The notes beneath the pieces were generated by a model that was not told where the DNA came from, did not search any database, and worked only from the letters and a program-made list of their open reading frames with translations. Below, one piece after another: positions 4,665 through 8,553 of a stretch of DNA of 8,677 nt. Source of the stretch: Synergistota bacterium (lineage in GTDB: Bacteria > Synergistota > JAGHAJ01); the NCBI GenBank assembly GCA_021161545.1, contig JAGHAJ010000202.1, positions 1 to 8,677 on the forward strand, given 5' to 3'. The stretch's first letter is position 1; each line of letters begins with the position of its first letter. Both the position numbers and the translations under genes were made by a program.

Positions 4665-6230
4665 TTACCACCCCCTCAATCTCTGAACAAATAGTTCATA
4701 CACCACAGAGATGTACTTCCTTTCCTTAACCCTCAATAAGTATATCAGCAAGAGAAACATAGATATTCCCACAAAAACCGTTATAGACAATTTTACCAAT
4801 AAAATCCAACCATAACAATCCTTAATCCAGTAAGCATCAATAACATAAACGAGCGTCAACATTACCAGCCCAACCCCAAGAACTCTGAAAAGCGGGAAGA
4901 GAAATGCCCGCCATTTGAGCAAGCCCATTCTCCTCTTAAATATCATAAACAGCACTACAAAATTCAATGCAGACACAATAGAAGTGGCAAATGCAAGACC
5001 TCCAACATCCAAAACACGCATAAGCACATACGCCAAGACAAAATTCAATCCCACCATAAAAGCACCAACCTTAACCGGTGTTTTGGTATCATAGACTGCA
5101 TAAAATGCCTTGAGTATAAGATTCAAGTATGCCATAAAGGGCAACCCTGCCGCATAGAAGCAGAGGGCAAACGCGGTATGATTCACTGCCCAATCTCCAA
5201 ACTCCCCTCTGGCAAACAAAAGTCTTATAATAGGTTTACCCAATACTGCAAGCCCAATAGCAGCAGGAACAACTATAAAGCTAACAAACGCAAGACCATC
5301 CGTTAAGGCATCAACAAACTCAGAGGGTTCATTTTGAGCACTATGCCTTGAAAGAGTGGGAAAGATAGCGGTTGATATCGCAATCCCAAACACCCCCATG
5401 GGTAACAACACAAGCCTCAGTGCATAGTTCAACACAGATATGCTACCAGAAGCAAGTAAAGAGGCAAGTACTCTGTCTATTATGATGTCAAGCTGAGTGA
5501 CTGCAAGGCCAAAAACATAGGGTAACATGAGCTTACCTATTTGTAAAATATCAGGATTACGAAAGTCCAGAATAAACCTGTATCTATATCCTTCCCTGTA
5601 TAATAGGGGCACCTGTATAAAAAACTGCAAACCTCCCCCGATCATCACAGCAATTCCCAGTAGTACAATAGCCCAACTCACTTTTCCAAAGAATAGCATG
5701 ATGGTTATAATCGATACGTTAAGCATGGCTGGTGCAAATGCTGGAACAAAGAACTTACCCAGCGCATTCAGGATACCCATGGAGATTGCAGCAAGACTCA
5801 TAAAAACTATAAAAGGGAACATCAAGCGGGTAAGTCTAACTGCAAGCAGGTGGGTGGATTCAACAAATCCCGGTGCTATAAACTTTACGATCCAAGGCGC
5901 AAATACTTCTCCCACAGAGACTATAATGGCAAAGAGTAAGAGCATAATATTTATTAGAATGTTAACGGTATCCCATGCCTGCTCTTTTTCCCCACTCACA
6001 ATCCTCTTGGTGAAAACAGGTATAAAAGCAGCGCTCAACGCACCTTCTGCAAGTAACCTCCTGAGTAGATTGGGTATAGTGTACGCTACCAGAAATGCAT
6101 CAAACTGGGCAGTAGCACCAAAAAGTGCTGCAACGATTATATCTCTACACAGCCCCAACACCCTGCTTATGAGCGTGGCCACCATCATGGCACCTGCAGA
6201 TTTTACCAAGAAAGAAGTCTTAGAAGGCAC
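4665..6230 (-). CDS. murJ: Lipid II flippase MurJ (MviN family)
   Basis: MurJ is a MOP-superfamily membrane protein that moves lipid II from the inner to the outer face of the cytoplasmic membrane for peptidoglycan synthesis. From the GTG start it has 521 residues, close to the usual 510-530. The chain is a series of hydrophobic helices consistent with 14 membrane segments. Family signatures are SRVLGLCRD (22-30), the FDAF acidic site (43-46), and LLRRLLAEGALSAAFIPVF (55-73) with the conserved arginines and AEGA. Further on are LNYALRLVLLPMGVFGIA and the FPTLSRH loop. GTG 6230 is preferred because GGAGGT (6242-6237) lies six bases before it. A TTG at 6248 falls in a terminator U-tract and has no ribosome site. 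It is the first gene of the run to lysS; trkA starts seven bases after its stop. Confidence 0.95.
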   Translation of the reverse strand: MPSKTSFLVKSAGAMMVATLISRVLGLCRDIIVAALFGATAQFDAFLVAYTIPNLLRRLLAEGALSAAFIPVFTKRIVSGEKEQAWDTVNILINIMLLLFAIIVSVGEVFAPWIVKFIAPGFVESTHLLAVRLTRLMFPFIVFMSLAAISMGILNALGKFFVPAFAPAMLNVSIITIMLFFGKVSWAIVLLGIAVMIGGGLQFFIQVPLLYREGYRYRFILDFRNPDILQIGKLMLPYVFGLAVTQLDIIIDRVLASLLASGSISVLNYALRLVLLPMGVFGIAISTAIFPTLSRHSAQNEPSEFVDALTDGLAFVSFIVVPAAIGLAVLGKPIIRLLFARGEFGDWAVNHTAFALCFYAAGLPFMAYLNLILKAFYAVYDTKTPVKVGAFMVGLNFVLAYVLMRVLDVGGLAFATSIVSALNFVVLFMIFKRRMGLLKWRAFLFPLFRVLGVGLVMLTLVYVIDAYWIKDCYGWILLVKLSITVFVGISMFLLLIYLLRVKERKYISVVYELFVQRLRGW

Positions 6231-6246: not shown

Positions 6247-6276
6247 AAAAAAGGGTGAGAGTATATCTCACCCTTT
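6247..6276 (-). terminator. Intrinsic terminator after the radical SAM gene
   Basis: Read on the minus strand, AAAGGGTGAGA (6276-6266) pairs perfectly over 11 bp with TCTCACCCTTT (6260-6250) across a five-base loop. A run of six T (6252-6247) overlaps the end of the stem and follows it. This is a classic Rho-independent terminator, 35 bases after the radical SAM stop codon. Its U-tract ends only four bases before the murJ ribosome site. On the plus strand the stem is followed only by TTTAATAG, so it is unlikely to act well in that direction. Confidence 0.88.
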
Positions 6277-6310: not shown

Positions 6311-7783
6311 TCACTTTGTTAAAACTTCTTCTACTTTCTCCTTTTTTCTCCTTTCCTCCACTTCTCTCCTCCTACGCATAAACCTTTCATAGTTGTAAGG
6401 TTTATCTTCCTTACTAAGGAGTTTCATGTAAAGCGGCAGGTCCTCATTTTCCCATACAGGATCGAATATCTCTTTCACCCTTCTCGCATACTCATCCAGT
6501 TTGGGTGCCAAAGGACCTAAAAGCATTTCTGCTCCTGGATGAGTGGGGTGAGCCCCCGTTTCTTTCACTATCCTCCTAAGAACCCACGGGTGGTCTATAA
6601 TCATACAAGGCCTTGTAAGATTATCATCGTCATAGGGTGCTGCTTCTCTGATTTTAGTAAAAAATGGGCTCTTCAGTATTTCTACAAGGCTCTTCTCATG
6701 GATATTGTCAGTAGCAAAATGTGCAAATACACACGGCTCAACATCTCCAGTAGCAACAATGTGCATATATCTTTCTCCTGCTGCCATACAACCATCTACA
6801 TACAGACCGTCATTCCAGAAGTCTCCAAGAAATATCGGTTTAGTTCTGCGATACTCACGCACCCTTTCGCGTAGCAACGCTCTCTGTTCAGGTGTAGCCA
6901 TGTACTCAAGGTCAGGCGTATCCCCAGTAGGAATATACTGGAAGTACCATCCAACTTTTGCTCCCTTACTTATCATAAAATCTATAAACTCCTCACTGGA
7001 TATGGCTTCAGTACTTGTCCTCGTGGCAGTAGCCGAAAACCCAAAAAGGACTCCTTCTTCTCTTAATATATCCATTGCCTCCATAACCCTGTCGTACACG
7101 CCCTTTCCTCTACGCCAGTCGGTTTCTTCCTTGGAACCTTCTATGCTTATCATGGGAGCAACATTTCCAAGTTCCACGAGGCGCTTCGCCACATCTCTTG
7201 TTATAAGTGTTCCATTGGTATATAACTGGAAATAGGCATCATTGTGCTTTTCCCAGATATCAAACATATCTTTTCTTGTGAATATCTCACCACCAGACAT
7301 GGTAAAGAAATACATACCAAGTTCTTTTGCTTCTGTTATAATTCTGTCCACATCTTCAAAACTAAGCTCCTCAGAGCGAGGATACTTGGCAGCATAACAT
7401 CCTTTACACCTCAGATTACACTTCATCGTAGGGCTAATTACCATAAAGTATGGCAGATGAACGTTGTATTCCTTCTCTTTTTTATCCCTTATACCCCTAC
7501 CTATTATCATCGAATTGACGAGCAGATTTATAACAAGTTTATTTCTGCAATTTGGATGAAGATCTTTGAATATGCTCCTCCACAAAACATAGAACGGATG
7601 ATTCTGATCTGCCATATCTGCAATACCCCTAAAGGTTTCTCTATGAAACTTGGTGGGAGACATCCTCGAAAGAAGCAAAAACACTTTCTTTACATGTGCA
7701 TCAGATGCCTTAGAGAGAAAGGCTGCTACACCTTTCATTACTCGCGCAGAAACATATCCCTTTGCCCTGGTAAGAATATCCAC
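6311..7783 (-). CDS. Uncharacterised radical SAM protein with a SPASM-like C-terminal region
   Basis: The 490 residues carry the radical SAM signature CNLRCKGC (Cys122, 126, 129), which binds the 4Fe-4S cluster that cleaves S-adenosylmethionine. SGGEIF (163-168) is the SAM-binding GGE motif, and the LYTNGTLI (187-194) and ISIEG (212-216) strands fit the barrel. The C-terminal part has DGCMAAGERYMHI (330-342), GDVEPCVF (346-353) and RPCMIIDHP (391-399). Its cysteines 332, 351 and 393 are placed like a SPASM or twitch auxiliary cluster, but only three are present. A helical N-terminal stretch of about 105 residues and a very basic tail (about 465-490) flank the core. GTG 7783 is the start, with AAGGGGGG (7798-7791) seven bases before it. 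It sits three bases behind the phasin-like gene and ends at a terminator. The substrate is unknown. It has no peptide-precursor neighbour of the kind seen for peptide-modifying SPASM enzymes. Confidence 0.88.
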   Translation of the reverse strand: MDILTRAKGYVSARVMKGVAAFLSKASDAHVKKVFLLLSRMSPTKFHRETFRGIADMADQNHPFYVLWRSIFKDLHPNCRNKLVINLLVNSMIIGRGIRDKKEKEYNVHLPYFMVISPTMKCNLRCKGCYAAKYPRSEELSFEDVDRIITEAKELGMYFFTMSGGEIFTRKDMFDIWEKHNDAYFQLYTNGTLITRDVAKRLVELGNVAPMISIEGSKEETDWRRGKGVYDRVMEAMDILREEGVLFGFSATATRTSTEAISSEEFIDFMISKGAKVGWYFQYIPTGDTPDLEYMATPEQRALLRERVREYRRTKPIFLGDFWNDGLYVDGCMAAGERYMHIVATGDVEPCVFAHFATDNIHEKSLVEILKSPFFTKIREAAPYDDDNLTRPCMIIDHPWVLRRIVKETGAHPTHPGAEMLLGPLAPKLDEYARRVKEIFDPVWENEDLPLYMKLLSKEDKPYNYERFMRRRREVEERRKKEKVEEVLTK

Positions 7784-7786
7784 GAG

Positions 7787-8119
7787 CTATCCCCCCTTCT
7801 TGATCTCAGTGACAATCCCTTCTAAAAGTTCTACCCTATTCTCCAACGCCTTAAGCATCCGTTTTATCTCATTTACCTCCGCCTTCGACGGTACATCTAC
7901 CACATCAAACAGCTTCCCTATCTCCTGTCTAATAGTGGATAACATCTCTTCCTTTTTTAACTCCATCCTCTTGGTGAACTCCTCAACTATCTTTTTACCC
8001 TCTTCCTCACTCATCTCACCTTTGCTAACCAACTCTTTAACAAGCGCATCTAACTGCGACTTTGTAAACGCAACCACACCCAAGCCGCTAAACAGAAACT
8101 TCCTCAGCAGCTCTATCAT
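7787..8119 (-). CDS. Small phasin-like helical protein
   Basis: This 110-residue protein resembles the small 'phasin family / polyhydroxyalkanoate synthesis regulator' proteins (COG3937 type). It has a short hydrophobic, amphipathic N-terminus (about 1-19, ELLRKFLFSGLGVVAF), then a TKSQLDALVKELVSKGEMSEEE segment typical of the group. A charged helical middle follows, and VPSKAEVNEIKRMLKALENR (77-96) leads into a likely coiled coil to about 107. No cysteines or catalytic motif are visible. Phasins coat hydrophobic surfaces such as storage granules. Members of this short group also occur without any known granule synthesis genes, and none is visible here, so the role is open. The ATG has GGAGGTG (8133-8127) seven bases upstream and a consensus promoter just before it. 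It appears co-transcribed with the radical SAM gene. Confidence 0.72.
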   Translation of the reverse strand: MIELLRKFLFSGLGVVAFTKSQLDALVKELVSKGEMSEEEGKKIVEEFTKRMELKKEEMLSTIRQEIGKLFDVVDVPSKAEVNEIKRMLKALENRVELLEGIVTEIKKGG

Positions 8120-8140
8120 GAATTACCACCTCCCAAAAGT

Positions 8141-8156
8141 TAGTATAATTATACTA
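8141..8156. repeat. 16-bp perfect palindrome over the -10 box
   Basis: TAGTATAATTATACTA is its own reverse complement. It covers the -10 box and the expected start site. It also creates a TATAAT on the plus strand at 8144-8149. It could be an operator for a dimeric regulator, or a by-product of a TATAAT box beside its mirror image. No plus-strand gene follows that would need a divergent promoter. Confidence 0.55.
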
Positions 8157-8176
8157 CACCTTTGCAACTTTGTCAA
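8148..8176 (-). promoter_or_regulatory. Consensus sigma-70-type promoter of the phasin-like/radical SAM unit
   Basis: On the minus strand, TTGACA (8176-8171) and TATAAT (8153-8148) are separated by exactly 17 bases. Both hexamers match the consensus at all six positions. Transcription would start near 8141 and leave a leader of about 20 bases before the ATG at 8119. The -35 box begins only five bases after the hypA stop codon. This predicts strong, housekeeping-sigma expression. Confidence 0.85.
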
Positions 8177-8181
8177 AAAAG

Positions 8182-8523
8182 CTACTCTACATCTATCTTT
8201 TTGACTATTAGTTCCCTCCCTCCCAATATCTCGACATCTATACTACCACACTTAGGGCATGTAAGATCATACTTATCGGCCTCATACTCATAACCACAGC
8301 TATTACACTTCACCCTTATAGGTAGCTTTCTCACTTCTACCTCTGCCCCCTCAGCTATGCTACCTTTACTCACAATCTCAAAGTAAAGCCTTACAGGTTC
8401 TGGCTCTATAGTACTGAATTCTCCCACTTCTACTTCGACTCTCAAAACCCTTTTCGCACCGTACTTCCGCGCCTCTCTCATAACTATGTTAAATATCTCT
8501 TGAGTAACGCCAAGCTCGTGCAT
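8182..8523 (-). CDS. hypA: HypA, nickel metallochaperone for [NiFe]-hydrogenase maturation
   Basis: HypA delivers nickel, with HypB, to the large subunit of [NiFe] hydrogenases (in some species also to urease). The 113 residues are normal length. The N-terminus is MHELGVTQEI, and the terminal amine and His2 of the Met-His motif form the nickel site. Two CxxC pairs, Cys73/76 and Cys89/92 (CNSCG and CPKCG), build the structural zinc site. The C-terminus GRELIVKKIDVE is typical. The ATG at 8523 is chosen over an in-frame TTG one codon upstream because the family needs His at position 2. GGGGAG (8534-8529) lies five bases before the ATG. No hypB, other hyp gene or hydrogenase gene is in view; the partners must lie elsewhere. 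The next gene downstream has its own promoter, and no terminator is obvious between them. Confidence 0.95.
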   Translation of the reverse strand: MHELGVTQEIFNIVMREARKYGAKRVLRVEVEVGEFSTIEPEPVRLYFEIVSKGSIAEGAEVEVRKLPIRVKCNSCGYEYEADKYDLTCPKCGSIDVEILGGRELIVKKIDVE

Positions 8524-8553
8524 CAAATCTCCCCTTGAATTTGCGATAAGAAC

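Follow-up and report, generated by a model that had tools for sequence, protein, structure and literature searches.

Membrane-spanning bacterial lipids are the basis of widely used climate proxies. An enzyme that forms such lipids, the membrane-spanning lipid synthase Mss, was described by Sahonero-Canavesi et al. in 2022 and is portrayed in passages of PMC13274423, PMC11868695, and PMC11604127. According to these passages, Mss occurs in anaerobic and thermophilic bacteria and is reported to have a catalytic architecture in common with the radical SAM enzyme Tes (GDGT-MAS, the archaeal tetraether synthase), which joins lipid tails. The Mss of Thermotoga maritima is reported to be active alone in E. 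coli (passages of PMC11604127), which indicates that a partner protein is not strictly required.

Here we analyze a window of 8,677 nucleotides from a Synergistota bacterium, which is one entire contig of a 1.58 Mb draft genome that is 82% complete. The window contains adjacent genes for a small phasin-like protein and a radical SAM enzyme. A preliminary description of the DNA had singled out the pair as a candidate for an undescribed system. As to the enzyme, this proposal is not supported, because the family is most likely Mss. What looks new is the association with the phasin-like partner, and no such partner of Mss was found in the passages of PMC13274423, PMC11868695, and PMC11604127. Mss and the enzyme are both found in anaerobic and thermophilic bacteria, have overlapping distributions in Bacillota, and share the company of lipid genes. 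In contrast to Mss as characterized in the published descriptions, the enzyme from the window is paired with a phasin-like gene.

Organization of the gene pair

The minus strand carries all the main genes of the window: dus, coaX, trkH, and trkA, which were named by reading their translations; murJ and hypA, which were identified by Pfam; and the pair itself. The features of the pair and its borders are as follows:

8182-8526, minus strand: hypA, on the same strand and just upstream of the pair
8148-8176, minus strand: promoter TTGACA-N17-TATAAT, an exact match that occurred in 0 of 200 shuffles of the window
8126-8134, minus strand: ribosome site GGGAGGTGG of the phasin-like gene, read from the sequence
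7787-8119, minus strand: phasin-like helical protein of 110 amino acids (P0002) with an ATG start, identified by NF047773, a three-helix model, and homologues adjoining the enzyme in relatives
7790-7798, minus strand: ribosome site AAGGGGGGA of the enzyme gene, within the last codons of the phasin-like gene, read from the sequence
6311-7783, minus strand: radical SAM/SPASM enzyme of 490 amino acids (P0001) with a GTG start, putative member of the Mss family, identified by PF04055, PF13186, the family survey, gene contexts, and a structure model
6250-6276, minus strand: intrinsic terminator with an 11-pair stem and a T-run

The two genes are separated by three bases (7784-7786). The stem of the terminator has a predicted energy of -17.2 kcal/mol (z = -3.1), and three of 200 shuffles were equally good. 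The exact promoter, the short gap, the position of the enzyme ribosome site inside the first gene, and the terminator show that the two-gene unit proposed previously is real. The promoter and terminator also make it self-contained in this genome, but that arrangement is particular to it: hypA lies upstream on the same strand, and in relatives the pair is part of the secDF gene row. The start codon of murJ is probably the GTG at 6230, which is preceded by a GGAGG site. The ORF finder lists the TTG at 6248, which adjoins the terminator.

The enzyme has a radical SAM core and a SPASM region

The enzyme matches the Pfam families Radical_SAM (PF04055, 84.3 bits, 1.4e-23) and SPASM (PF13186, 31.4 bits, 2.4e-07). 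The cysteines of its CxxxCxxC motif, C122, C126, and C129, are invariant in all 64 aligned sequences, as are cysteines 332, 351, and 393 of the SPASM region. In the AlphaFold2 model (pLDDT 91.4), five N-terminal helices formed by residues 3-106 precede the barrel, and the protein ends in a helical basic tail. The motif, the Pfam matches, and the model thus agree with the earlier characterization of a radical SAM enzyme with a helical N-terminus and a basic tail. A scan of the genome contigs with a single query sequence returned one locus, and a search for relatives of the enzyme in viral contigs found none.

The best solved fold matches of the model are the SPASM peptide maturases SkfB (Z 26), SuiB (Z 25), and anSME (Z 25), which outrank Tes (Z 18.5 over 250 residues), and therefore the fold does not decide the substrate. 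These matches, together with the NirJ2/AhbD and StsB models that head the NCBIfam list, could indicate that the enzyme is a peptide or protein maturase of the RiPP or sulfatase type, unrelated to lipids. We consider this very unlikely, because the identity to SkfB, SuiB, and anSME is just 16-22%, every NCBIfam match listed is far below its cut-off (the best reaches 104 bits against 500), and the neighboring genes in Bacillota are lipid genes rather than the gene company of the maturases. Among the models listed, the enzyme scores below all equivalog cut-offs of SPASM RiPP maturases. In addition, no obvious precursor-peptide gene adjoins the enzyme in the window, as noticed in passing rather than by a targeted search.

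Three other assignments were rejected. A heme d1/AhbD function is contradicted by the NirJ2 score of 104 bits against a cut-off of 500. An anti-phage role was suggested by PADLOC solely through a viperin-like similarity (E 7e-11), which reflects the shared radical SAM core. The third is membership in the Tes family: the enzyme shares its radical SAM fold with Tes, but the similarity of the sequences is weak and falls short of clear full-length homology. Comparison with Methanocaldococcus Tes (7tol) gave E 0.0024 over 113 residues (116-228); the published cut-off for such homology, E < 1e-50, refers to a different sequence, MA_1486.

Distribution of the enzyme family

Homologues of the enzyme are present in 60 of 185 Synergistota genomes (E <= 1e-25). 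A close form with at least 49% identity occurs in 39 of the 60, and the rest have a distant form with 36-44% identity. In a quick tree, the close form is one clade (SH-aLRT 92), and the distant form clusters with sequences from Bacillota, including Caldicellulosiruptor. The family was detected in 188 of 398 sampled Bacillota genomes (E <= 1e-25), some of which carry two or three homologues, and in all 37 Thermoanaerobacteria (E <= 1e-30), where it is single-copy in 32.

One of the Thermoanaerobacteria genomes, with one homologue, is that of an organism that we take to be Caldicellulosiruptor owensensis, and another homologue-bearing genome is presumably that of Thermoanaerobacter pseudethanolicus. 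Given the assumed identity of C. owensensis, the enzyme family occurs in a species known for diabolic-type acids, which speaks of the presence of the family and not of its activity. In the excerpt of PMC13274423, table 1 lists C. owensensis as carrying mss and making extended iso-diabolic acid, and table 2 shows that the published survey of Mss found the same kinds of anaerobic Bacillota families. The breadth of the enzyme family fits this published distribution, and the family is therefore taken to be that of Mss.

Genes neighboring the enzyme

In Bacillota, the genes recurring next to the enzyme encode a PlsC-type acyltransferase (PF01553), patatin (PF01734), FabH (PF08541), AarF (PF03109), UbiA (PF01040), the HGD-D (PF06050) and BcrAD (PF01869) components of a PlsA/Ger-like dehydratase, a conserved HTH regulator, and the phasin-like protein; part of this context set was picked for a nearby phasin-like gene. 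Among 30 Bacillota enzyme loci that were not picked by context, AarF was found within 1.5 kb in ten, the HTH regulator in 23, and HGD-D in two. PlsY adjoins the enzyme in nine of 30 Thermoanaerobacteria loci, all of them Caldicellulosiruptor-like.

The presence of AarF/UbiB and UbiA, which could be quinone-type helpers, raises the alternative that the substrate is a membrane lipid or a polyprenyl or quinone compound and that the enzyme carries out another reaction on it, such as methyl transfer, desaturation, or chemistry of the quinone ring. The occurrence of two or three homologues in some genomes is in line with this alternative, since their functions may have split. Nevertheless, the other recurrent neighbors (PlsC, patatin, FabH, PlsY, and HGD-D) are acyl-chain and acyl-glycerol genes, and we regard a different lipid or quinone reaction as unlikely.

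The source genome contains an HGD-D/DUF2229 (PF09989) and BcrAD gene set of the PlsA/Ger type. Ger/PlsA-like reductases are used in published surveys for ether lipids; according to the excerpt of PMC13274423, Ger and PlsA are indistinguishable by sequence. At locus L178 (G000:C181), three adjacent HGD-D/DUF2229 and BcrAD genes correspond to a split PlsA/Ger-like protein, which is a single chain of about 1500 amino acids in other families. The HTH regulator stands beside the enzyme in 23 of the 30 unselected Bacillota loci and in 15 of the 30 Thermoanaerobacteria loci, for example, at L134:4620-5357. In Synergistota family f3, the next gene after that of the enzyme encodes a flavodoxin-like protein (L183:8960-9442, L185:6879-7352), which could be the electron donor of the enzyme.

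The phasin-like protein

The first protein of the pair is small and helical, like the phasins of families PF05597 and TIGR01837. It scores 35.7 bits with the NCBIfam 'phasin-related' model NF047773, above the cut-off of 35, but falls short with Pfam Phasin PF05597 (24.2 bits, cut-off 28.8) and TIGR01837 (32 bits, cut-off 94.7). The previous designation as phasin-like is thus supported by the phasin-related model, but not by the cut-offs of the Pfam and TIGR phasin families. The predicted structure consists of three helices (pLDDT 84.5, pTM 0.49), and a fold search with it returned nothing better than E 1.6. The recurrence of the phasin-like gene beside a UbiB-type gene in Bacillota is reminiscent of UbiK as part of the Ubi metabolon (PMC9499169), but the score of the protein with the UbiK/BMFP family PF04380 is 15.7 bits, below the cut-off of 37.2.

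Conservation of the pair

The phasin-like gene is present in 23 Synergistota genomes, all of which also encode the enzyme (profile search, clean matches with E < 1e-15). Weak phasin-like matches in 11 other listed genomes, all located inside long frames of other proteins, were left out of this count. Strong AarF matches occur in 12 Synergistota genomes, and each of the 12 has both the enzyme and the phasin-like gene. Fisher tests, which ignore common descent, gave p-values of 1.8e-13 for the enzyme and phasin-like gene and 5.8e-13 for a second Synergistota test, given with the AarF counts.

The usual order of genes in Synergistota is secD-secF-[phasin-like]-enzyme-lapA-recJ, with the flavodoxin-like gene inserted after the enzyme in f3. 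In the window, the pair is adjacent between hypA and murJ and not at secDF, which indicates that it stays together when its context differs. There are also genomes in which the two genes are apart. Genomes G022, G044, G052, and G129 have the phasin-like gene at secDF and the enzyme elsewhere, and the phasin-like gene is not beside the enzyme in the Thermovirga-like family f7, the Aminobacterium-like family f4, family f6, and many Bacillota. In 13 Bacillota genomes, with near relatives among them, no more than about 3 kb separates the phasin-like gene, often beside AarF, from the enzyme, compared with 0.5 genomes expected. At the level of whole genomes, the co-occurrence in Bacillota, seen in 78 genomes, does not reach significance (p = 0.12 by a Fisher test that ignores common descent). 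The pair thus recurs in both Synergistota and Bacillota, which counters the objection that the adjacency might be confined to one genome.

Of 30 Bacillota loci of the phasin-like gene (L100-L129), 20 have an AarF/UbiB kinase gene at a distance of up to 1.5 kb, and two have the enzyme. These counts, together with the non-significant co-occurrence in Bacillota, favor the explanation that the phasin-like protein serves AarF/UbiB and not the enzyme, their adjacency being due to chance or shared regulation. Such an arrangement would be compatible with the enzyme being Mss. We find it rather unlikely, since Synergistota family f9 and genome G020 of family f8 keep the phasin-like gene beside the enzyme while AarF is elsewhere or absent, and since the pair is still adjacent in the different gene context of the window. 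Judging from the gene arrangements, the function of the phasin-like protein is probably broader and involves AarF, with the enzyme as one client among others. A search of the literature, of incomplete coverage, for phasins with UbiB or AarF returned unrelated matches only.

Proposed function of the pair

The data are best read as action of the enzyme on a membrane lipid, as suggested earlier. This reading is well supported by the recurrence of the pair, by the nested phyletic profiles, and by the acyl-lipid genes around relatives of the enzyme. Its distribution and gene company make membership in the Mss family most likely, with Mss compared by description only. It is probable that the enzyme performs an Mss-type joining of lipids, for which we infer the reaction and substrate. 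The cluster bound by CxxxCxxC would reductively cleave S-adenosylmethionine, and the resulting 5'-deoxyadenosyl radical would abstract a hydrogen near the methyl end of a phospholipid fatty-acyl chain. The carbon radical could then couple with a second chain, and the product would be a membrane-spanning C30-C32 diacid of the diabolic type.

The phasin-like protein may be a peripheral protein of lipid surfaces that, as a putative scaffold, holds the enzyme at the membrane or helps to expose the acyl tails; in some genomes, it may also hold an AarF/UbiB-type ATPase there. A tentative possibility is that membrane-spanning lipids are synthesized by a small membrane machine, in which the phasin-like coiled protein, in many species together with the UbiB-type ATPase, would extract the acyl tails and present them to the enzyme. 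The help provided by UbiB, UbiJ, and UbiK in ubiquinone synthesis is a parallel to such a machine.

If the phasin-like protein does bring the enzyme to the membrane, it would assist an enzyme that until now was known solely on its own. The conserved partner and the linked UbiB-type ATPase are candidates for explaining how one enzyme reaches lipid tails buried in both leaflets. They could also bear on why E. coli cells expressing mss together with ger formed ether lipids but no membrane-spanning lipids, for which the authors give other reasons (passages of PMC11604127). The gene predicts membrane-spanning lipids in Synergistota, of which the passages of PMC13274423, PMC11868695, and PMC11604127 contain no report. 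The link of the phasin-like genes of Bacillota to the AarF/UbiB kinase deserves a study of its own.
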